Shown: positions 1 through 41,322 of the stretch, piece by piece
Layout: every line of letters starts with the position of its first letter
Position numbering within the stretch: the stretch's first letter is position 1
Source: a virus
DNA length: 41,322 bases
IMG/VR virus record: IMGVR_UViG_3300046167_000126
Span: 1-41,322 of that record
Reading direction: 5' to 3' (one strand)
Position numbers and translations under genes: made by a program
The notes under the pieces: model-generated
Database searches by the model: none
What the model was told of the DNA's origin: nothing
Seen by the model: only the letters and a program-made list of their open reading frames with translations

Positions 1-25
1 TGTTGCTTACCCCAAAACCCCCATA

Positions 26-250
26 CTACCCTAAAGGGTAGAGATTGGCACAGAAACCGTCACAATCTAGTCGTAAGACTAGTGTTCATCAGCTATTGCA
101 ACGGATTATAAATCCGATACTGCTGCCAAATGCGCAAGGAAGACGTGTTTGGAGAGTTCGGCTCAAACCATTCGTTCTTTTGTGAACAGATGTTTTTTGA
201 CTTAGAGCATAGCTCTAGACACTGCTCTCACATAAGACTTTTAAAGTCTT
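26..250 (+). ncRNA. Hairpin-rich non-coding left-end region, possible structured RNA
   Basis: No credible gene lies here. Perfect hairpins follow one another: 26-41 (CTACCCT/AGGGTAG, loop AA), 67-82 (CTAGTC/GACTAG, GTAA tetraloop), 102-116 (CGGATT/AATCCG, loop ATA), 147-168 (GTTTG-AG with CT-CAAAC, one bulged G), 203-217 (TAGAGC/GCTCTA) and 234-250 (AAGACTT/AAGTCTT). TTGGCA at 45-50 can pair with TGCCAA at 124-129, which would close a multibranch around the 67-82 and 102-116 hairpins. The region is identical in the right-end copy although the flanking sequence differs. It matches no RNA family known to me. DNA roles in packaging or replication are equally possible. Confidence 0.35.
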
Positions 251-284
251 GAGGCAAGCCTGCGTCTGTGTCGTTCTGCGATCG

Positions 285-434
285 TATAATGCCTACCGAA
301 TGCGATCGCGCACGAGCTGAGACCGATCCAAAACTTTTTTCGTCTTTTCGTATGGTATCCTATGCATAATGCGCACGATACGGCGTTGAAAAAAGTCCTG
401 ATCGCACGAGCCGACTTGACAAGGTTGTTATAAT
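285..434 (+). promoter_or_regulatory. Possible early promoter region with several -10-like hexamers
   Basis: TATAAT occurs at 285-290 and 429-434 and CATAAT at 365-370, in the last non-coding stretch before the first early gene. This is where T7-like phages place promoters for the host RNA polymerase. None has a convincing -35 box at 16-18 bases. TTGACA at 416-421 is only 7 bases from the TATAAT at 429. The region also has a CGATCG-rich segment (280-310). From 251 to 504 I see nothing else that I can name. Confidence 0.25.
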
Positions 435-504
435 GAAAGCGGCAAATCACTCCGATCACTGCCAAGCCAAGCAAGGCACAGCATACAATCCAATCATACA
501 CACT

Positions 505-654
505 ATGAAGGCACTATTAAAAACATACACAAACGACACTTTAACAAACGCCGAAGAGGTCGAGCTACCCGAAAACTACGACGGCGACCCATACGGTGAC
601 ACAGTCCCATTTTGTGTGGGTTGTAATCAAAGCCTTGAAGTCTTAGACAGTTAA
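505..654 (+). CDS. Small early protein (49 aa), present only in the left repeat copy
   Basis: The product is acidic and ends with a CVGC motif that could be half of a zinc site; I do not recognise a family. ATG 505 is chosen over the in-frame ATG at 433 because it follows the same CA-rich leader containing AATCCAATC (487-495) that precedes the neighbouring genes. The whole gene lies in a 190-bp segment missing from the right-end copy. Its position between leader-like repeats suggests an optional cassette. Function unknown. Confidence 0.5.
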   Translation: MKALLKTYTNDTLTNAEEVELPENYDGDPYGDTVPFCVGCNQSLEVLDS

Positions 655-695
655 TCAAAACCACAAAATCCAATCCCACAAAACCACATATAATT

Positions 696-1037
696 ATGCA
701 TAACGACAATCAAATCGACGCTAACGGCGGTTCTTACTACGTAGTCTCAGCTTTTGGATGGGCATCAGATAAGAACCCTTTCAGGGCTTTCATGAAGCTT
801 GCAGAGGACGGCTCAATCACAGGTAGCTTTCCTAAAGCTAAAGACCGCAAAGCTAACGGTGAACTCTGTAAGAGAGCTGACACTGCGATATTCGTTTACT
901 ACGTAGCCGACGATTCCAAGGTGAAGGGGTTTAATTGGTTTAGACCAATTGATGAAAACAACAAGCCTCTAGGCACTCTTATCTACGGTGGCGACGCTAA
1001 CTGCGAATTGGTAGCACGGTTATTAAGCCAAGACTAA
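696..1037 (+). CDS. Conserved early protein of unknown function (113 aa)
   Basis: This soluble protein of mixed charge has no recognised domain. The same gene is at 40681-41022 in the right-end copy. Only three residues differ between copies (Ser to Ala, Ile to Val, Ala to Asp), and other changes are silent, which supports real coding. No Shine-Dalgarno precedes the start; the leader is CA-rich with an AATCCAATC element at 667-675. The gene contains two perfect 7-bp hairpins (824-840 and 933-950). As one of the first left-end genes it probably acts early, perhaps in host takeover, but that is inference from position. Confidence 0.75.
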   Translation: MHNDNQIDANGGSYYVVSAFGWASDKNPFRAFMKLAEDGSITGSFPKAKDRKANGELCKRADTAIFVYYVADDSKVKGFNWFRPIDENNKPLGTLIYGGDANCELVARLLSQD

Positions 1038-1043
1038 GGCTCA

Positions 1044-1076
1044 CCTAGTCTACGCAGATCATCTTTGACAAAAGTA
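1044..1076 (+). repeat. Leader repeat, copy A (upstream of the gp88-like gene)
   Basis: This 33-bp element begins CCTAGTCT and ends TTGACAAAAGTA. It matches 2171-2203 at 26 of 33 positions, and the similarity runs on weakly into the start of each downstream gene. The inner octamers (CTACGCAG here, CTGCGTAG in copy B) are exact reverse complements of each other. Both copies lie just before an early gene, so the element may be a promoter or leader signal. TTGACA resembles a -35 box, but no good -10 follows. A third copy is in the right-end repeat at 41029-41061. Confidence 0.6.
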
Positions 1077-1091
1077 AAGCAAAAACTCGCT

Positions 1092-1745
1092 ATGCCAAAA
1101 ACCACACTCAAATCCATCGAAGCTACCGTAGGTACTTTATCCGCTCCATCTAAGATGCCATGTCACGGCTTTAGCTTACCAGCTAAGGACTGTAAGGTTG
1201 GCTCTAAGCTACGCTTGTCTGAAAAGTCCACTTGTGCTGACTGCTATGCTCTAAGGGGCAGATATGTTTTCCCTAACGTTCAAAATGCTCTAGAGAGCAG
1301 ACTCGACAAGCTCAAGTCTATGACTACAGACAAGTGGGCAGAAAGCATGACCGAATTAATATTCCGTAAGGAAAAGTCAGGCTACTTCAGGTGGCATGAC
1401 TCAGGTGATTTACAATCACTTGAGCATCTGGAGGCAATCGCTAAGGTGGCAGAGAATCTGCCGAACATTAAGTTCTGGTTGCCGACTCGTGAATACAAGA
1501 CTGTAAAGTCTTACGTCGACAAGCACGGCTCGTTCCCATCTAACCTAACCGTAAGGTTATCCGCCTACTTCAAGTACTCCGCTCCGCCTACTCAAACTGC
1601 AGACAAACTTGATGCAGTTTGCTCAACCGTAGGCTACAGCGAAAGCGAGCACGTTTGTCCATCAGGCAAGCAAGGCAATAAATGTCTAGATTGCAGAGCT
1701 TGCTGGAGCCGTAGCGTAGCTAACGTTGATTACCCTCTTCACTAG
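1092..1745 (+). CDS. Phage gp88-like (GP88 family) cysteine-rich protein
   Basis: This 217-residue protein resembles the GP88 family of mycobacteriophage and other phage proteins, whose role is unknown. Family signatures visible here are a Cys-rich N-terminal part ending CADCYALRGRY, the central FRWHDSGD block, a following KFWLPTRE strand, and a C-terminal Cys cluster (VCPSGK, CLDCRACW). The cysteine spacing suggests a metal or iron-sulphur site; that is inference. ATG 1092 is preferred over a TTG at 1065, which belongs to the leader repeat. No Shine-Dalgarno is seen. The right-end copy (from 41077) has lost one G and is truncated by the window end. Confidence 0.7.
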   Translation: MPKTTLKSIEATVGTLSAPSKMPCHGFSLPAKDCKVGSKLRLSEKSTCADCYALRGRYVFPNVQNALESRLDKLKSMTTDKWAESMTELIFRKEKSGYFRWHDSGDLQSLEHLEAIAKVAENLPNIKFWLPTREYKTVKSYVDKHGSFPSNLTVRLSAYFKYSAPPTQTADKLDAVCSTVGYSESEHVCPSGKQGNKCLDCRACWSRSVANVDYPLH

Positions 1746-1776
1746 AATAACCACACACAATCCAACACACACAGTT

Positions 1777-2175
1777 ATGCAACGAACACACAATCCATTC
1801 GACCCTGAAAAACCTGTAAAGGTTTACTGGAATCTACGCCGTAAACTGTACTCCGTACAGCAGAAGGGTCTTGTCGTAGGACACGCCGAAAACATTGCAC
1901 TGAAGAACGTAACCTTTAAGGTCAACGAGTCAGGCAGACAGCGCGTCTTGAAAGAGCGTAGGAAGAATGTACACGCTTTTGTCACTGGCTTACTCGACGA
2001 CAACTCTAACCGCTATTGGGATGTAAAGGTTGTTTACAACCCTTACAAGTACAACTCGTTCCGACTGTGGACAAACGACAGTGTAACTGTCAAACGAGCT
2101 AGTTCGGTCTTACTTCGTACTCGAAACGGTGGCGGAGAGATCCTTGCAGACCGTCAGCTAGCGTGTCTTGCCTAG
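1777..2175 (+). CDS. Early protein of unknown function, basic (132 aa)
   Basis: The product is rich in Arg and Lys with alternating hydrophobic residues, suggesting a small beta-rich nucleic-acid or protein-binding fold; I recognise no family. ATG 1777 follows a CA-rich leader with AATCCAA (1759-1765) and no Shine-Dalgarno. The coding sequence holds several perfect hairpins: 1810-1825 with a GTAA loop, 1846-1860, 2077-2091, and a 10-bp stem with one mismatch at 2023-2046. The end of the gene overlaps copy B of the leader repeat. Confidence 0.65.
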   Translation: MQRTHNPFDPEKPVKVYWNLRRKLYSVQQKGLVVGHAENIALKNVTFKVNESGRQRVLKERRKNVHAFVTGLLDDNSNRYWDVKVVYNPYKYNSFRLWTNDSVTVKRASSVLLRTRNGGGEILADRQLACLA

Positions 2176-2203
2176 TCTGCGTAGTACAATCTTGACAAAA
2201 GTA
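2171..2203 (+). repeat. Leader repeat, copy B
   Basis: This is the second copy of the 33-bp element at 1044-1076, with seven mismatches, ending in the same TTGACAAAAGTA. It overlaps the last codons of the preceding gene and precedes the 76-residue gene. A weaker relative sharing CTAGTCTG is at 4403-4410 upstream of the integrase. Confidence 0.6.
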
Positions 2204-2231
2204 TATGGCGAAACTGCCGAATCAAATCACC

Positions 2232-2462
2232 ATGCAAAACCACATCCAAATCGTTAGAGAATCACACTATGGCTGCACTAGGTATTACCTAGCTGCTGAC
2301 CATCACAGCCAAGCGTTTGCTGACGGTCTACGCCAGCTAACTGGACGTAAGTCCATTACTGAATTCGACATCGAAGGTCTGCGTAAGCTAGGCTTTCACG
2401 TTCACCTTATCAACGATTCACTCCCACTCAAACACGAACGCTATTCACCTATCTATGCTTAA
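2232..2462 (+). CDS. Small early protein of unknown function (76 aa)
   Basis: The product has a short N-terminal strand-rich part and a C-terminal part with the pattern DIEGLRKLGFHVHLIND, which looks like a helix-strand unit. I recognise no family. The start at 2232 is chosen because its first codons align with the start of the gp88-like gene downstream of the related leader repeat; an in-frame ATG at 2205 would add nine residues. No Shine-Dalgarno is present. A perfect 6-bp hairpin lies at 2278-2292. The last eight bases overlap the next gene. Confidence 0.6.
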   Translation: MQNHIQIVRESHYGCTRYYLAADHHSQAFADGLRQLTGRKSITEFDIEGLRKLGFHVHLINDSLPLKHERYSPIYA

Positions 2463-2634
2463 CGAAATCCTAGCCACCTGCAAGCAACTCAATCGTCTAC
2501 TCAAGGCGAAAGATCCGTACCATGCCGACCTTGTATCGACCCTACTCGACAAGATCGACAAGCAAATCCCATCAGACAACCCACAAGGGGTTGACAAGGA
2601 TGTTATTATTGAAGCTCTCAACGAAAACGACTAA
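2455..2634 (+). CDS. Small early protein of unknown function (59 aa)
   Basis: This reading frame starts inside the end of the previous gene (8-base overlap), suggesting translational coupling. The product is largely helical, with a Leu-rich first half (CKQLNRLLKAK) and an acidic end. I recognise no family. Its stop codon TAA (2632-2634) sits inside stem II of the predicted hammerhead ribozyme, so a ribosome finishing this gene would disturb folding of the ribozyme. Confidence 0.6.
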   Translation: MLNEILATCKQLNRLLKAKDPYHADLVSTLLDKIDKQIPSDNPQGVDKDVIIEALNEND

Positions 2635-2693
2635 GGCGAAACAGGGTGCAACTCCCTGTCTGCTGGTAACCTTCCAGCACTGACGAGCCTGTC
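2629..2693 (+). ncRNA. Type II hammerhead self-cleaving ribozyme
   Basis: All conserved core positions are present in the type II (open stem II) arrangement. Stem II is A2634-C2637 with G2687-T2690, extended by GAC 2629-2631 with GTC 2691-2693 across a two-base bulge. Next come GAAA 2638-2641 and stem III, CAGGG 2642-2646 with CCCTG 2654-2658 (7-nt loop). T2659 and C2660 follow, completing the G-U-C cleavage triplet. Stem I is TGCTGG 2661-2666 with CCAGCA 2674-2679 (7-nt loop), followed by the CTGACGA core 2680-2686. Every stem is fully paired apart from the bulge. Cleavage is predicted between 2660 and 2661, releasing the DUF932 message from the upstream cistrons with a 66-nt leader. Type II hammerheads are known from bacteria and aquatic metagenomes. 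Confidence 0.88.
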
Positions 2694-2726
2694 AGCTTAC
2701 ACATAATCAGATTACACATACTGCAT

Positions 2727-3711
2727 ATGAAACAAGACACATACATCGTTAACACTCAACAAAACGTCTGGTCTAACAAGATCACAGACAGCATCAACTC
2801 TGTTGAGGACATCGGACTTAACTGGGACGTACAGAAAACACCTATGGTGGCTCTGCTCGAAGGCAAGTATCCGCTGCCTATCGAGTCACACGTATCCATC
2901 AATCGCTCTGACTCTAACGAGTCTATCGGAGTGGTTGGCTCTGGCTACGAGCCTATCCAAAACTCTAAGATCTGGGAAGCTATGCACCGATCAATGGAAG
3001 GCACTAACCATGAAGTGTGTGGTGGTGGCTACACCCACAACGGTGGAAGAGTGTTCGTACAGACTAAGGTCAAGGACGAAGACTTCACGGTCAACGGTGA
3101 CGCCTTCGATAACTACGTTACATTCTACAGCTCACACGATGGCAGTTCTGCCTTCGAGTTGTTTGACACTAGTGTCCGAATGATTTGCCAAAACACGTTC
3201 CGACTTGCTAAGAAAAACGGAGGCAAAGCCTTTCAAGCTTAAGGTACGCCACACGAAGAACGCTTCGGTACGTTTCGAGAACGTCATGCAACATCTCGAA
3301 GAGATCTTCGACAATCGTCGGATCGCATACCAAAAGCTTAACCAGTTAACTGGCGAGACGTTGTCCTATCAGGACATGATCGGCTGGGCGACTTCGTTCT
3401 ATAACAAGACCAACAAACTGTCTACTGTCAGTAGTAACAAGGCTCACGAGACTCGCCGACTTGCTCACAGCGGTATAGGCAACAACGGTCGGACATCCTA
3501 CGACCTGTTCAACGGAGTCACTGAGCTGCTCACTCACGGCGACCGAAACACCTCCAAGGATAGCTCTGCTATCTGGCGTTCGTCGGAGCTAGGTGCTGCT
3601 GCGGTGCAAAAAGCTAACGCTTTAGAGCAACTGTCACCTAGCAAACGCTGGCTTCACATTGCCAGAGGTAACGAGCTTATCCGCTTAGGCGAAACTACTT
3701 TGTCTGCATAA
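2727..3711 (+). CDS. DUF932 phage/plasmid-like protein, frameshifted in this sequence
   Basis: The two frames 2727-3242 and 3205-3711 are one gene. An extra T in the run 3231-3233 turns a continuous GGKAFKLKVRHTKN reading into an early stop; correcting it gives about 327 residues, a usual length for DUF932 (phage/plasmid-like) proteins. Family features include the WDVQKTPM start region, the GSGYEPIQN block, FELFDTSVRMICQNT, and the helical C-terminal part. The role of the family is not established; members are common on phages and plasmids. The leader is the 3' product of the predicted hammerhead cleavage. No Shine-Dalgarno is seen. Perfect 12-bp palindromes lie at 3165-3176 and 3342-3353. 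Confidence 0.8.
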
Positions 3712-3761
3712 CTGTGTAACCCTAACCGTCCTGAGCATGACATTAAACTGCTCACATTTTT

Positions 3762-3920
3762 ATGAGCGATACTGATAGAATATTTGCACACAAACAAACG
3801 ATAGTCGTGCTTAGACATAAGCTCGCTGAGATGCACGATGTAAATGATGAGTTGCGCAAGCAGCTCGCTGAACTGACACGAACTACAGGCAGTCAACTAC
3901 CCAAATTTGTCACAAGTTGA
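3762..3920 (+). CDS. Small coiled-coil protein (52 aa)
   Basis: The product has a heptad-like helix (VVLRHKLAEMHDVNDELRKQLAEL) followed by a short tail, suggesting a dimerising coiled coil. I recognise no family. The start ATG 3762 follows a T-rich leader without Shine-Dalgarno. Its last codons and stop overlap the left arm of the perfect inverted repeat at 3906-3939. Confidence 0.45.
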   Translation: MSDTDRIFAHKQTIVVLRHKLAEMHDVNDELRKQLAELTRTTGSQLPKFVTS

Positions 3921-3939
3921 GGGGGTAATTTGTGACAAA
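3906..3939. promoter_or_regulatory. Perfect 10-bp inverted repeat, possible operator
   Basis: TTTGTCACAA (3906-3915) and TTGTGACAAA (3930-3939) are exact reverse complements separated by 14 bases. No T-run follows, so a terminator is unlikely. The inner 8-mer TTTGTCAC recurs at 4438-4445 over the -35 box of the integrase promoter, and its complement GTGACAAA at 5942-5949 upstream of the RNA polymerase gene. This suggests a shared protein-binding site, for a repressor or the integrase. The 8-mer also occurs inside genes (1978, 14757), so chance cannot be excluded for single sites. Confidence 0.4.
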
Positions 3940-3991
3940 ACTACAGCCGAAATCAACCGAGAGTTAACTTCAACATACAAATATAAAACAC

Positions 3992-4270
3992 ATGAAATAC
4001 GCAATCAAACTACCTAACCGCAAAGGTTATCTCTGTCACGCAGGCACAAACCGTGCCGTCATCTACGACAGCCCTACAGGGTTTCCAATAGCAATGGACA
4101 TCACATCATCTGGAGGCAAGCGCGTTGCTGTGGAAGGTGAGGTTATGTCCGAGATCTATGCGTACAACTGGTACGACAACAAAATCGACGAGATCGAAGA
4201 CCCAGTTGAAAGTCTGCTCGAATACAAGGGACACCATCGAGTTCAGGAAGATGCCACTGTGTATATCTGA
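3992..4270 (+). CDS. Protein of unknown function (92 aa)
   Basis: This acidic protein has a basic N-terminal end (MKYAIKLPNRKGY) and an acidic C-terminal half (WYDNKIDEIEDPVESLLEY). I recognise no family. The leader is A-rich (about 20 bases without G) with no Shine-Dalgarno. It is the last gene before the lysogeny module, between the inverted repeat at 3906-3939 and the integrase promoter region. Confidence 0.6.
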   Translation: MKYAIKLPNRKGYLCHAGTNRAVIYDSPTGFPIAMDITSSGGKRVAVEGEVMSEIYAYNWYDNKIDEIEDPVESLLEYKGHHRVQEDATVYI

Positions 4271-4486
4271 AGATTCCAAACCGTTGACAAATAATTCAGA
4301 ATCCAATATGGAAATCTCATGGATAATGCATATACAGAGGTATATCCATACCTTCACTTTCCTGAAACTTGGTATATACGCCAAGGTGTTGCATATCGCT
4401 AGCTAGTCTGGGTCTGACATACTCTGTAACTTTATCATTTGTCACACTAAAAATTTTATCTATATTACACACACACGGAGGGAAGC
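4271..4486 (+). promoter_or_regulatory. Integrase promoter region
   Basis: The best promoter is TTGTCA (4439-4444), a 16-base spacer and TATATT (4461-4466). It is followed by a strong Shine-Dalgarno GGAGGG (4477-4482) four bases before the integrase ATG. The -35 box lies within TTTGTCAC, the half-site of the inverted repeat at 3906-3939, so the promoter could be controlled through it. Upstream are TTGACA at 4284 without a good -10, a TATAC/GTATA hairpin at 4331-4344, a CTTGG/CCAAG pair at 4369-4386, and TACCTTCACTTT at 4349-4360, which recurs at 5960-5971. These may include arm-type integrase sites. Confidence 0.5.
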
Positions 4487-5581
4487 ATGGCAATACGAAG
4501 AAGAGGTAAGAGCTGGCAAGCCGATATGCACATAAACGGAAAGCGAGTCCGTAAATTATTCAAAAGTTTAGCAGACGCAGAGGACTTTGAGTCTAACGTA
4601 CAGCACCGTAGTAAGTTAGGACTTAAAGTAACTCACATACTCAGCACTAAGAATGCGAGTCTAACCCTGAAGGGTCTAACCGATACTGTTTACGAAGCGG
4701 TCTGGAAAGACACAGCTAATGGCATAAACGCACTGCGTAACGTCGAGCTGATACAGCGTATCATTGGTACTAACTTCAAGGTGGATGACATTAACACTAT
4801 GGTGATTGATGAAATCATTCACGCGATGAAAACCCAAGGCAACAGTAATGGCACTATCAATAACAAGATGTCTGCTCTTATGGTATGCCTGAAGTACGCA
4901 CACGATAGGGGATGGATACAGAATGTTCCTAAGTTTAAACGTTACAAGGCGTCCGAAGGGAGGCTGCGTTACTTCTCGCACGAAGAGGAGGAGATGATAA
5001 TTTCTACCAACAAAAGACTAGGGCAAATCGAGTTTGCTGACTTCGTTAAGGTGTTGATTGACACTGGCTTGCGTACTGGTGAGCTGTGCCGTGTCCAATA
5101 CAAGGACATCGTAAAGGAATCGGGAAGGTGGAAGATGTACGTATGGGCGAGAGGTCACGACTACCGCACTAAGAACGGAGAGATGAGAATCGTTCCACTA
5201 TCTGATGAGGTCGTGAGTATTTTTACTAATAAGTGGGATAAGCTTGACAGTAATCCTGACCATCCTAAGATATATAACAGTATTACATCTATTGCGCACC
5301 GTAATAGTAAAGTATTTAACTACACCAAATCTAACATACGCACACAATGGAACAACGTACGCGACTTACTAGGCTACATGAACGATGAGGAGTTTGTACC
5401 TCACCTGTGTAGACACACCTGCGCTACTCGCTTAGTCCAAGCAGGCGTCCCACTACTCGCAGTCAAAGACTGGATGGGACACAAGTCTATACAAGTTACA
5501 ATGAGGTACGCTAAGTTGGCTCCTGATGCTGTGTTCGATGCTCTCGATACACTAACCAAGAAACGTAAACTCAAAAAATAA
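4487..5581 (+). CDS. int: Tyrosine recombinase integrase
   Basis: This 364-residue site-specific recombinase would insert the phage genome at a bacterial attB. The N-terminal part (residues 1-50, RRRGKSWQADMHINGKRVRK) looks like an arm-binding domain, the middle (about 60-160) is the core-binding helical domain, and the catalytic domain follows. Catalytic residues are Arg196 (TGLRTGEL), His306 and Arg309 (HLCRHT), His332 (GHKS) and the nucleophile Tyr341 (MRYAKL). All are present, so the enzyme should be active. Unlike the surrounding genes it has its own promoter and a strong Shine-Dalgarno. A tRNA-Leu lies 235 bases downstream, the arrangement seen in integrase-bearing T7-like cyanophages. 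Confidence 0.95.
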   Translation: MAIRRRGKSWQADMHINGKRVRKLFKSLADAEDFESNVQHRSKLGLKVTHILSTKNASLTLKGLTDTVYEAVWKDTANGINALRNVELIQRIIGTNFKVDDINTMVIDEIIHAMKTQGNSNGTINNKMSALMVCLKYAHDRGWIQNVPKFKRYKASEGRLRYFSHEEEEMIISTNKRLGQIEFADFVKVLIDTGLRTGELCRVQYKDIVKESGRWKMYVWARGHDYRTKNGEMRIVPLSDEVVSIFTNKWDKLDSNPDHPKIYNSITSIAHRNSKVFNYTKSNIRTQWNNVRDLLGYMNDEEFVPHLCRHTCATRLVQAGVPLLAVKDWMGHKSIQVTMRYAKLAPDAVFDALDTLTKKRKLKK

Positions 5582-5773
5582 ATGACTCAATCAAATCAAA
5601 TGTTCAAACCTGATACTGAAAAGGTTTTGGTCAGAGGTTTAAACGCCATGACCAAAGCCTGTGATGCACTCTCAAATCAAAACGAACAACTTAACAAGGA
5701 CATCGAAGCTCTCAAGCGTAAGGTTGCTCGTCTACAGGAGAGAGTGCTGGTCAATCAGGGTGAAAAGGAATGA
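5582..5773 (+). CDS. Small coiled-coil protein co-transcribed with integrase
   Basis: This 63-residue protein starts on the base after the integrase stop codon, so the two are surely one transcript. The second half is a coiled coil (LSNQNEQLNKDIEALKRKVA) ending in a basic stretch. I recognise no family. Its size, charge and place suggest an excisionase or an integrase partner, but no helix-turn-helix or winged-helix motif can be read, so this is only a guess. Confidence 0.6.
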   Translation: MTQSNQMFKPDTEKVLVRGLNAMTKACDALSNQNEQLNKDIEALKRKVARLQERVLVNQGEKE

Positions 5774-5816
5774 GTGACTTGTGCCTAAAATGTGTCTATA
5801 CTGCCAACAAAAGGAT

Positions 5817-5902
5817 GGGTGTGTGGTGGAATGGTAGACACGGTAGACTCAAAATCTACTGTCAGCAATGACTTGGAGGTTCAAGTCCTCTCACACCTAC
5901 CA
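5817..5902 (+). tRNA. tRNA-Leu (anticodon CAA)
   Basis: A full class II tRNA can be folded. The acceptor GGGTGTG (5817-5823) pairs with CACACCT (5892-5898, first pair G-U). The D-arm region TGGTGGAATGGTAGAC is typical of leucine tRNAs. The anticodon stem is GTAGA/TCTAC with loop CTCAAAA, anticodon CAA. The long variable arm is GTCA-GCAA-TGAC, the T arm is GGAGG-TTCAAGT-CCTCT, and the discriminator A and CCA end are encoded. It could supply Leu-UUG decoding. Its place after int also marks it as the probable attP, since integrases of related phages use host tRNA-Leu as attB. Confidence 0.93.
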
Positions 5903-5928
5903 CTCCATCGGATTCAAAATCCGTTGCA
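5840..5928 (+). other. Probable phage attachment site (attP) region
   Basis: The 3' half of the tRNA-Leu lies just downstream of int. In P-SSP7-like cyanophages the sequence at this place matches half of a host tRNA-Leu and is taken as attP. Immediately after the tRNA, 5907-5928 forms a second anticodon-arm-like hairpin (CGGATT-CAA-AATCCG) sharing TCAAAATC with the tRNA anticodon loop. The exact core cannot be set without the host sequence. Confidence 0.45.
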
Positions 5929-5941
5929 TAATTTAATATCC

Positions 5942-6002
5942 GTGACAAATCCGTAGGGTTACCTTCACTTTTTTTTATTAACCATACATAACTCCCACTA
6001 CT
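5942..6002 (+). promoter_or_regulatory. Leader of the RNA polymerase gene with repeated motifs
   Basis: GTGACAAA (5942-5949) and TACCTTCACTTT (5960-5971) both recur upstream of the integrase (4438-4445 in reverse, and 4349-4360). An eight-base T-run follows at about 5970. No Shine-Dalgarno precedes the RNA polymerase start. The paired motifs on both sides of int could be integrase arm sites or operators linking the lysis-lysogeny choice to RNA polymerase expression. Confidence 0.3.
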
Positions 6003-8420
6003 ATGCAGACACTTCGTGAGACGTTTCCGTCCCAAAACCGTCCGATTGAGAACGATATGCTCGAAAGTGGTGTTAACCGTTTTCGTTCTAAGATTGATTC
6101 AAGTCGGCGAAGGGAGAGCGAATGCGAAACTCCGTATGGTCAACGTCTATTGAAGGCAGCACTTCCTCCTTTGGTCGATGCGTTGGAAGCATGGGAGAAG
6201 CAACAAGAGAAAGCACCCATAGCAGGGAACGCTTATTACAAGCTCCAAGAGATTCCAACTAAGACCGCTGCCTTCATTGGACTGAAAAGTATTTTAGATT
6301 CTATTACACAGAAACGTACGCTCGCATCCGCAGCTGTACGTGTAGGAGCTTTGATTGAGGATGAGGTACGCTTCGCCCATTTCAGCAACCACCCACAGTG
6401 GCAGGGTATACTGAAGGGTGCAAAACGTAGAGAGAGCTATCGTAAGAAACGATACTACCTGATTAAGTCTGAGAAGGGCGAAGCTACCAAAGGCGAAACG
6501 GATGAATGGGATAAGTGGGGAACACGTATTAAGCTACACGTAGGTACTGTTATCATTGATTCAATCAGAGCCTCAACTGGGTTGATTGATTACGTCATGA
6601 TACAGACAGACAAGAGAGGACCAGCTCGTTTTGTTACTGCATCCGACAAGACATCCGAATGGATTGAAGATATGATGAAGGACAACGAATTACTCTGTCC
6701 CTTCTGGATGCCGCTGTTAGATTTTCCAAAGCAATGGACAGACAAGTGGTCAGGTGGTTATGACATTGAGTCAGGGCTTCCACCGTTACCGTTCATTAAG
6801 ACACGAGACAAGACGTTCCTCCGAGAGAACACAGAGAAGATGACTGACGTTATGAACGCAGTGAATCTTCTACAGAATACACCTTGGAAGATTAACCAAC
6901 GAGTTCTCAACGTACTGCAAGAGACTTGGGAGCAGGGCATTGAAGTAGACGGTATACCTCAGCGTGAGGATGAAGAGCTACCGCCTTTCCCATCAGATGA
7001 TTGCGATCCGATTGAGAAGAAGATGTGGAAGCGTAGAGCTGCTGCAATCTACGATCACAACGCAGCTACAAAGAGTAGACGCCTCCTTGTACTCAATACC
7101 CAGTGGCTGGCTAACAAGTATCGAGACAAGCAGTTCTACCTTCCACACCAGACAGACTTCAGGGGTCGGTGTTATGCAGTGCCTAGCTACGTCAACCACA
7201 TGGGAGCTGACTTTCAAAAGAGTCTACTGACTTTTGCTAGAGGTGAAAAGATTAAGAACGAATCAGATGTTGAGTGGTTAGCTATTCACGGAGCCAACTG
7301 CTACGGAGTTAAGGGTACGTTCAATCAGCGCGTAGATTGGATTGAAGAAAACCGACACAACATTTTTAAGATCGCAAAAGATCCGATGGCTCACGTTGAT
7401 TTGTGGCGAGAGTGTGATGAGCCTTTTCAGTTTCTTGCTTTCTGTTTTGAGTGGGCTGAGTACATGGCTAAAGGTATTGGATTTGTTACACACCTACCAT
7501 GTGCGATGGATGCAAGTAACAACGGACTACAGTTGTTAGGTGTTCTCACCAGAGATATGCCTTCCTGCATAGCTACCAACGTAGCACCAAGCAACTACCC
7601 TCAAGACATCTACGGTATTGTAGCTAACAAAACGATTGAGTTTCTTAAACAGGATGGTGACTCTGACTACGCTGACAAGTGGTTAGCATATGGCGTAGAC
7701 AGGTCGGCGTGTAAGAGACCAACGATGACACAGAGTTACGGTTCAACTTTGTATTCATGTCGCCAATACATTAGTGACTGGTACACAGAGACGTCACGAA
7801 AGAAGGATGAAGTACCGTTTGATGAGACAGATAAGTTTCAAGCAACCGCTTACCTAGCTGGTAAAGTATGGCAAGGTATCAATGATGTTGTAGGTAAACC
7901 AAGAGAGGCGATGGCTTGGCTTCAATCTACAGCACGGATACTAGCCGATGAGGGTAAACCATTTTACTGGGTATCACCAAGTGGATTCCCTTGCCACCAA
8001 TCTTACATGAAGTGGGAAACTAAATCCATTAAGACAAAGCTCGGCGATAAAGTTATGAGGGTACGTTTCCGTGAGGACACCGATAAGCTGTGCGCCAAAC
8101 GACAAGCTCAGGGAGCATCCCCTAACTACATTCACTCACTTGATGCTAGTGTTCTTCACACGACAGTTAATCAATCCGCTACCAATTTCAACGTCAGAGA
8201 TTTTGCGATGGTGCATGACTCAATGGCGACACACACCACTAAGTGCAACGAGCTTGCAGCTACCATACGTGATGTGTTTGTAAAACAATTTACACCAGAC
8301 TTACTTCAAGAGTTGAAAGACTCTTTAGAAGATGAGCATGGAGTAAACCTTGAGCCTCTTCCAGTGAAGGGGACATTTAACGTTAACGACATATACAAAT
8401 CGGAGTACATATTCTCATGA
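6003..8420 (+). CDS. T7-like single-subunit DNA-directed RNA polymerase
   Basis: This 805-residue enzyme (T7 gp1 is 883) would transcribe the middle and late phage genes. Conserved blocks are DFRGRCYAVP at 385, the catalytic Asp503 in CAMDASNNGLQL (motif A), Lys571 and Tyr579 in KRPTMTQSYGS (motif B, nucleotide binding and sugar selection), and the second catalytic Asp739 in MVHDSMATHT (motif C). The gene marks the end of the early region. The leader lacks a Shine-Dalgarno. I found no repeated T7-style promoter that it might use, so its promoter consensus remains open. Its last four bases overlap the SSB gene. Confidence 0.97.
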   Translation: MQTLRETFPSQNRPIENDMLESGVNRFRSKIDSSRRRESECETPYGQRLLKAALPPLVDALEAWEKQQEKAPIAGNAYYKLQEIPTKTAAFIGLKSILDSITQKRTLASAAVRVGALIEDEVRFAHFSNHPQWQGILKGAKRRESYRKKRYYLIKSEKGEATKGETDEWDKWGTRIKLHVGTVIIDSIRASTGLIDYVMIQTDKRGPARFVTASDKTSEWIEDMMKDNELLCPFWMPLLDFPKQWTDKWSGGYDIESGLPPLPFIKTRDKTFLRENTEKMTDVMNAVNLLQNTPWKINQRVLNVLQETWEQGIEVDGIPQREDEELPPFPSDDCDPIEKKMWKRRAAAIYDHNAATKSRRLLVLNTQWLANKYRDKQFYLPHQTDFRGRCYAVPSYVNHMGADFQKSLLTFARGEKIKNESDVEWLAIHGANCYGVKGTFNQRVDWIEENRHNIFKIAKDPMAHVDLWRECDEPFQFLAFCFEWAEYMAKGIGFVTHLPCAMDASNNGLQLLGVLTRDMPSCIATNVAPSNYPQDIYGIVANKTIEFLKQDGDSDYADKWLAYGVDRSACKRPTMTQSYGSTLYSCRQYISDWYTETSRKKDEVPFDETDKFQATAYLAGKVWQGINDVVGKPREAMAWLQSTARILADEGKPFYWVSPSGFPCHQSYMKWETKSIKTKLGDKVMRVRFREDTDKLCAKRQAQGASPNYIHSLDASVLHTTVNQSATNFNVRDFAMVHDSMATHTTKCNELAATIRDVFVKQFTPDLLQELKDSLEDEHGVNLEPLPVKGTFNVNDIYKSEYIFS

Positions 8421-40147: not shown

Positions 40148-40200
40148 TGGAAATTTCTGAGAGGGTTTATATACGTGTTGCTTACCCCAAAACCCCCATA

Positions 40201-40425
40201 CTACCCTAAAGGGTAGAGATTGGCACAGAAACCGTCACAATCTAGTCGTAAGACTAGTGTTCATCAGCTATTGCAACGGATTATAAATCCGATACTGCTG
40301 CCAAATGCGCAAGGAAGACGTGTTTGGAGAGTTCGGCTCAAACCATTCGTTCTTTTGTGAACAGATGTTTTTTGACTTAGAGCATAGCTCTAGACACTGC
40401 TCTCACATAAGACTTTTAAAGTCTT
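40201..40425 (+). ncRNA. Right-end copy of the hairpin-rich non-coding region
   Basis: The sequence is identical to 26-250, including all hairpins and the TTGGCA/TGCCAA long-range pairing, although nearby positions have changed. The same alternatives apply: a structured transcript or DNA signals. Confidence 0.35.
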
Positions 40426-40680
40426 GAGGCAAGCCTGCGTCTGTGTCGTTCTGCGATCGTATAATGCCTACCGAATGTGATCGCGCACGAGCTGAGACCG
40501 ATCCAAAACTTTTTTCGTCTTTTCGTATGGTATCCTATGCATAATGCGCACGATACGGCGTTGAAAAAAGTCCTGATTGCACGAGCCGACTTGACAAGGT
40601 TGTTATAATGAAAGCGGCAAATCACTCCGATCACTGCCAAGCCAAGCAAGGCACAACACACAATCCAATCATACACAATT

Positions 40681-41022
40681 ATGCATAACGACAATCAAAT
40701 CGACGCTAACGGCGGTTCTTACTACGTAGTCTCAGCTTTTGGGTGGGCAGCAGATAAGAACCCTTTCAGAGCTTTCATGAAGCTTGCAGAGGACGGCTCA
40801 ATCACAGGTAGCTTTCCTAAAGCTAAAGACCGCAAAGCTAACGGTGAACTCTGTAAGAGAGCTGACACTGCGATATTCGTTTACTACGTAGCCGACGATT
40901 CCAAGGTGAAGGGGTTTAATTGGTTTAGACCAATTGATGAAAACAACAAGCCTCTAGGCACTCTTGTCTACGGTGGCGACGATAACTGCGAATTGGTAGC
41001 ACGGTTATTAAGCCAAGACTAA
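40681..41022 (+). CDS. Right-end copy of the 113-residue early protein
   Basis: This matches the gene at 696-1037 apart from three amino-acid changes. Here it directly follows the first AATCCAATC leader because the 49-residue gene is missing, so its leader is a hybrid of the two leaders in the left copy. Function unknown. Confidence 0.75.
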   Translation: MHNDNQIDANGGSYYVVSAFGWAADKNPFRAFMKLAEDGSITGSFPKAKDRKANGELCKRADTAIFVYYVADDSKVKGFNWFRPIDENNKPLGTLVYGGDDNCELVARLLSQD

Positions 41023-41076
41023 GGCTCACCTAGTCTACGCAGATCATCTTTGACAAAAGTAAAGCAAAAACTCGCT

Positions 41077-41322
41077 ATGCCAAAAACCACACTCAAATCC
41101 ATCGAAGCTACCGTAGGTACTTTATCCGCTCCATCTAAGATGCCATGTCACGGCTTTAGCTTACCAGCTAAGGACTGTAAGGTTGGCTCTAAGCTACGCT
41201 TGTCTGAAAAGTCCACTTGTGCTGACTGCTATGCTCTAAGGGCAGATATGTTTTCCCTAACGTTCAAAATGCTCTAGAGAGCAGACTCGACAAGCTCAAG
41301 TCTATGACTACAGACAAGTGGG
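41077..41322 (+). CDS. Partial right-end copy of the gp88-like gene, frameshifted
   Basis: The first 54 codons match the gene at 1092. A missing G at 41240-41242 then shifts the frame, so the reading departs from the family after CADCYALR and stops at 41277. The window ends before the gene would. The left copy is intact, so this is probably a sequence error or a defective allele. Confidence 0.7.

Follow-up and report, generated by a model that had tools for sequence, protein, structure and literature searches.

A type II hammerhead ribozyme with a core-complementary tail between early genes of a T7-like marine phage

Why should a phage carry a self-cleaving RNA between two of its early genes? 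What hammerheads do in bacteria and phages has been debated since 2011, and the question is raised again by IMG/VR record IMGVR_UViG_3300046167_000126, whose full 41,322 nucleotides (hereafter, the window) were analyzed here. A reading made from the sequence alone had placed a type II hammerhead at 2629-2693 (all features are on the + strand), in the early gap of a T7-like phage that separates upstream small genes from DUF932. We scrutinized the structure, its close relatives, and a wider viral set, and consider it likely that a functional type II hammerhead cuts the early RNA at 2660/2661, leaving hairpins on both ends, after which a tail downstream of stem II locks the core.

The ribozyme and its genomic setting

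Every element of the hammerhead lay where the sequence-only reading had put it. The 5' strand of stem II, AGGC (2634-2637), pairs with GCCT (2687-2690), as supported by the Rfam match, the fold, and the pair counts, and is followed by the core GAAA (G12 A13 A14 A15.1; 2638-2641). The stem III hairpin (2641-2659; 2641-2646 with 2654-2659) consists of the CAGGG/CCCTG helix originally proposed plus the A15.1-U16.1 pair. The GTC triplet ends at C17 (2660), so cleavage is predicted between 2660 and 2661 by the hammerhead rule NUH, and the stem I hairpin (2661-2679; 2661-2666 with 2674-2679) leads into the core CUGACGA (2680-2686), where N7 is C2684. Both core segments, CUGANGA and GAAA, and the UH cleavage site were thus present, and all core bases matched the hammerhead consensus. 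Fold and pair counts support stems I and III, which are loop-closed, whereas stem II is open. The flanks GAC (2629-2631) and GTC (2691-2693) add three outer stem II pairs across a UA bulge (2632-2633), with GTC being common to the tail described below. This bulge is formed by the first two bases of the upstream stop codon, TAA (2632-2634), the final A of which pairs with U2690, in agreement with the proposal that the stop codon lies within stem II. The three-way junction was also the unconstrained RNA fold of 2629-2693 (z -2.2).

Identification as a type II hammerhead was upheld by the covariation, invariant core, and conserved position described below together with a match to the covariance model RF02276 (Hammerhead_II). 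This match, from the suggested Rfam search, spanned 2634-2701 with an E-value of 2.1e-4 (501 bases searched against all families) or 4.1e-6 (genome, one-family search); its score of 30.9 bits fell short of the gathering score of 37. Consequently, the default Rfam scan of the window misses the hammerhead and returned a tRNA only; E-value mode was required. Hammerheads of the relatives scored 25 to 34 bits against RF02276; the short stem II and the pseudoknot tail built into this model probably account for such scores. Across 14 control genomes, five gave matches at E<=1, none of them above the cut-off, and none gave a match at E<=0.01. First-order Markov randomization of the window, repeated 300 times, produced no motif with 15 or more pairs, as many as the hammerhead has, and two with at least 11. 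Neither PaP3 nor Bcep176, for which variant hammerheads have been cited, matched by strict-core scan or at Rfam gathering, hence these two provided no positive control. No other known ribozyme or hammerhead was found elsewhere in the early region of the window, and no second strict-core type II hammerhead across its whole length. With only one hammerhead, most early junctions of this phage are not cut by such a ribozyme. Scans of the window for sigma-70 promoters and terminators gave results at chance level.

The window encodes a T7-family single-subunit RNA polymerase (PF00940, E 6e-88; phrog_414, E 2e-225), whose closest records, mostly pelagiphages and roseophages, were 33 to 38% identical. 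Judged by this gene, the host of the element is an uncultured T7-like marine phage (Autographivirales), as had been proposed. The window also encodes a phage major head protein and, close to a tRNA-Leu gene, an integrase, and DNA similarity of positions 1-8000 to cultured phages was limited to tRNA-Leu. The early region runs in the order GP88-like, L5-gp82-like, two unnamed small genes, ribozyme, and DUF932. The ORF immediately upstream (2455-2634; 59 aa) belongs to no family, and the predicted cut falls 66 nt ahead of the DUF932 start codon (gene at 2727-3711). Relative to the DUF932 genes of contigs L001, L002, and L004, one extra base near 3215-3242 breaks the frame, being either a sequencing error or a real mutation. 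GP88, L5 gp82, and DUF932 families stand side by side at 1065-3711; the L5 gp82 family takes its name from a gene of a mycobacteriophage, and actinobacteriophages commonly carry DUF932 relatives. The ends of the window repeat at 99% identity (1-502 as 40176-40677; 692-1338 as 40677-41322), with the second copy (40176-41322) lacking about 190 bases of 1-1338, perhaps reflecting terminal redundancy assembled from two variants.

Conservation in close relatives and occurrence across viruses

We collected 14 IMG/VR contigs encoding close relatives of the window's DUF932 protein, 13 of which include the upstream stretch. A hammerhead occupied the same junction in nine of these 13 (L001-L007, L012, and L014), consistent with the location first proposed, and was cleanly absent in the other four (L008-L011), so the ribozyme is dispensable there. 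Upstream of DUF932 in these four, the junction sequence is TAGTCCATC, which resembles the 3' strand of stem II together with the tail in a different hammerhead type from the same clade and is perhaps the scar of a deletion. Relatives carried one to three hammerheads each, most having extra copies at other early junctions, and in two near-complete relatives (39.9 and 40.0 kb) all Rfam matches were confined to the early region. The upstream stop codon lay six or ten bases before GAAA in the relatives' hammerheads, with one listed exception.

Covariation in all three stems had been put forward as a check, and it was found. Across 25 hammerheads from the relatives, 96% of pair cells were paired and 10 of 18 pairs had changed on both sides. 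The covariation score was 0.37 compared with 0.15 for shuffled alignments, none of 500 shuffles scored as high, and every slid version of the stem alignment scored far lower than the true register. The core was invariant except for N7, the variable core position of hammerheads generally, and thus did not show the free variation that would have spoken against the original assignment.

Scanning IMG/VR with degenerate patterns, supplemented by a search with a DUF932 alignment, yielded a wider set of at least 750 type II hammerheads (at least 486 after removal of near-duplicates, from at least 274 loci), a sample in which the scan patterns favor certain stem II sequences. A long upstream frame ended nearby in 411 of the 486 listed; among these matches, the upstream stop codon fell 3 to 16 bases before GAAA in 302 and 5 to 7 bases before it in 178. 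A stop codon in or adjoining stem II is thus usually seen and represents a general feature of viral type II hammerheads. The median distance from stem II to the next ATG was 26 nt (first 162 hammerheads listed), and the richest single locus among the matches listed held at least eight hammerheads. In the surroundings of 80 DUF932 genes, 96 hammerheads were in the sense orientation and none was antisense. One lay directly upstream in 21 of these 80 genes, nearly all from one DUF932 subgroup, though this is not an unbiased rate since the search alignment was built from hammerhead-bearing loci; none lay directly upstream of the distant DUF932 genes among the 80. DUF932 is a recurrent downstream partner of type II hammerheads.

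Other kinds of phage carried arrays of approximately five or more type II hammerheads between small genes (L031, L035, L051, L094, and L398). A narrow-pattern scan of GTDB gave four bacterial matches, none with a TCAG tail right after stem II: Filomicrobium insigne (L387; NZ_FNJC01000004.1), Fretibacterium and Synergistaceae MAGs (L388-L389), and a Hyphomicrobiaceae MAG with three copies (L390). These hammerheads possibly sit in prophages.

A tail complementary to the core

Of all 4-mers within 12 nt downstream of stem II, TCAG was the most enriched in the listed set (76 occurrences compared with 11.4 expected). UCAG is complementary to core CUGA, and the base before it, N', is the partner of core N7. 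This N'UCAG motif occurred in about 14% of the 486 listed viral hammerheads, including that of the window. The usual alternative hairpin, CUGANG/YN'UCAG, has six pairs and a four-base loop; in the window, CUGACG (2680-2685) pairs with UGUCAG (2690-2695) around the loop AGCC, as supported by the product fold and by N7-N' covariation. This hairpin excludes the active hammerhead fold. Its distance to the first ATG downstream had an interquartile range of 17 to 23 nt across such cases.

Bases at N7 and N' were matched in nearly every case of the listed set (T-A 39, C-G 23, T-G 3, and G-T 1, against T-T 1 and C-A 1). The same was true of hold-out loci that were not used to form the idea (T-A 29, C-G 11, T-G 1, G-T 1, and C-A 1; p=3e-8, with sequences treated as independent although they are not fully so). 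Covariation persisted within each stem II type, so that a lineage effect of stem II type does not account for it, and was also seen between paralogues within one locus (L007, L040, L170, and L302). The alternative pairs were present in the minimum free energy (MFE) fold of the product in 64 of 64 cases, and in that of the window. However, the core also paired downstream in 30% of product folds lacking the motif, compared with 21% of controls; the fold alone is therefore weak evidence and covariation carries the argument.

Most hammerheads bearing N'UCAG had at least four pairs in stem II and lacked a pseudoknot between loop I and the tail, whereas that pseudoknot was present in 68% of motif-lacking hammerheads with no more than three stem II pairs. 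Phage type II hammerheads hence appear to form at least two groups, the first with the pseudoknot and the second, to which the window belongs, with the tail motif. Farther out, a 4-bp GUAA/UUAC pairing is possible in the window. In the openly available passages on type II hammerheads that were searched, neither a core-complementary tail nor the stop-codon overlap was described. The hammerhead itself is of a known kind; the tail-bearing subclass appears to be new.

With such a core, hammerhead cleavage falls after H17 and yields a 2',3'-cyclic phosphate and a 5'-OH; among the classical permutations, type II alone places a hairpin at each of the two new ends. In the window, cleavage between 2660 and 2661 of a polycistronic early RNA, just past the stop codon of the 59-aa gene, would probably cut the shared message in two, and as the site is in the untranslated gap both reading frames would be left whole. 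The upstream message would be closed by the stem III hairpin with its cyclic phosphate, while the DUF932 message would begin with the stem I hairpin and a 5'-OH, both new ends presumably being protected by these hairpins. Once the cut has released the core strand CUGAC (2680-2684), the tail GUCAG (2691-2695) would pair with it; the leader of the DUF932 message would thereby gain a second hairpin, and re-ligation would be hindered. That the RNA is cleaved in the cell, that its ends are protected, and that cutting precedes locking is what we infer from this anatomy.

Alternatively, the tail hairpin could form before cleavage and act as a brake or switch, with N'UCAG keeping the core inactive and stem II pairing activating it. 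One version has a ribosome on the last upstream codons keeping the ribozyme off, such that cleavage would report an untranslated upstream gene. The two structures are mutually exclusive and near balance in the window: stem II was estimated at -4.2 and the alternative at -6.2 kcal/mol, values that leave out the outer stem II and tertiary contacts, and for the uncut RNA the MFE structure was the hammerhead and the centroid the alternative hairpin, at similar stability. Moreover, GUC (2691-2693) can pair with either the GAC before the stop codon or the core, and a stop codon in or adjoining stem II was found in most cases. Competition between upstream translation and cleavage, as the sequence-only reading had suggested, is plausible on the layout of the locus. 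Yet that overlap also occurred in hammerheads without the tail motif, the hairpin is located downstream, and it is not known to have a ligand or partner. A tuned switch with correlated stability of both forms was not supported, as the two were uncorrelated over 66 cases (rho -0.07), albeit in a weak test of tuning. A lock is favored over a brake because the stabilities are unmatched and the hairpin appears in every product fold, both of which are weak arguments. We regard the brake as unlikely, and it is doubtful, if marginally less so, that this widespread subclass with its own antagonist tail is bistable, coupling cleavage to upstream translation as a natural translation-sensing switch.

Less probable still is that all the tail does is lengthen stem II outward or make a tertiary contact in the active ribozyme, with core pairing a by-product. 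An extended stem II (GAC-UA-stem II/stem II-GUC) does form in the window and in several others. However, N' tracks N7 rather than the base that flanks stem II, and the covariation remained in 38 cases in which an extension cannot form (T-A 28, C-G 7, C-A 1, T-T 1, and G-T 1; p=1e-6, assuming full independence of sequences that are in part related), so a pure extension does not account for it. Nor does a loop I pseudoknot, which occurred in the N'UCAG group at the control level (10% compared with 10%). Finally, it is very improbable that the hammerhead is decayed or inactive and persists through descent alone, a reading in line with its loss from four relatives, given that the core varies at N7 only whereas the stems show compensated pair changes.

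Comparison with known systems

The locus offers a specific anatomy, namely a position locked to a stop codon, a predicted hairpin on both product ends, and a covarying hairpin that would shut the core, and with it the function question becomes one of mutants and rescue at a single base pair, N7-N'. DUF932, a gene of unknown function, gains a recurrent ribozyme partner, and clustered hammerheads are now extended to T7-like marine phages. In T7, RNase III cuts the early polycistronic mRNA between genes, leaving structured ends. The window's ribozyme may by analogy do a comparable job, although there a protein enzyme acts on a double-stranded site and here the RNA would cut itself, leaving a 5'-OH and a cyclic phosphate. 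The Theta (HDV-like) ribozymes of gut phages are likewise phage-borne self-cleaving RNAs, but have another fold and are tRNA-linked.

The nearest known systems are the type II hammerheads (RF02276; Perreault et al. 2011, PMC3088659). The shared features are the permutation, core, GUC triplet, and intergenic phage position, together with several copies flanking single genes and a suggested role in cutting transcripts. Clustered type II hammerheads between phage genes were proposed there to cut long transcripts, and a message-separating role in the window, with which its sequence is consistent, is the same idea. Of 18 consensus hammerheads tested, 14 cleaved in vitro and four did not; prophage arrays of bacteria also cleaved in vitro, and that of A. 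tumefaciens in E. coli as well (PMC3088659). Unlike those type II hammerheads, that of the window has a stem II lengthened to 4+3 pairs around a UA bulge, a T7-like phage host, an N'UCAG core-complementary tail, and a stop codon inside stem II. The published pseudoknot between loop I and the 3' tail, common but not defining in type II (PMC3088659), was not in evidence for the window's group. PMC10085705 states that hammerheads and twisters in bacteria show an enrichment close to particular genes, strongest for Mu-like phages, with the reasons given as unknown. HHphage of haloviruses HF1 and HF2 (PMC3088659) differs in its archaeal virus host and in a variant core related to one needing high Mg2+, whereas the core of the window is consensus. 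Like the ribozyme of the window, it lies just upstream of an early viral gene, and a transcript 5' end was mapped within 3 nt of its cleavage site (PMC3088659).
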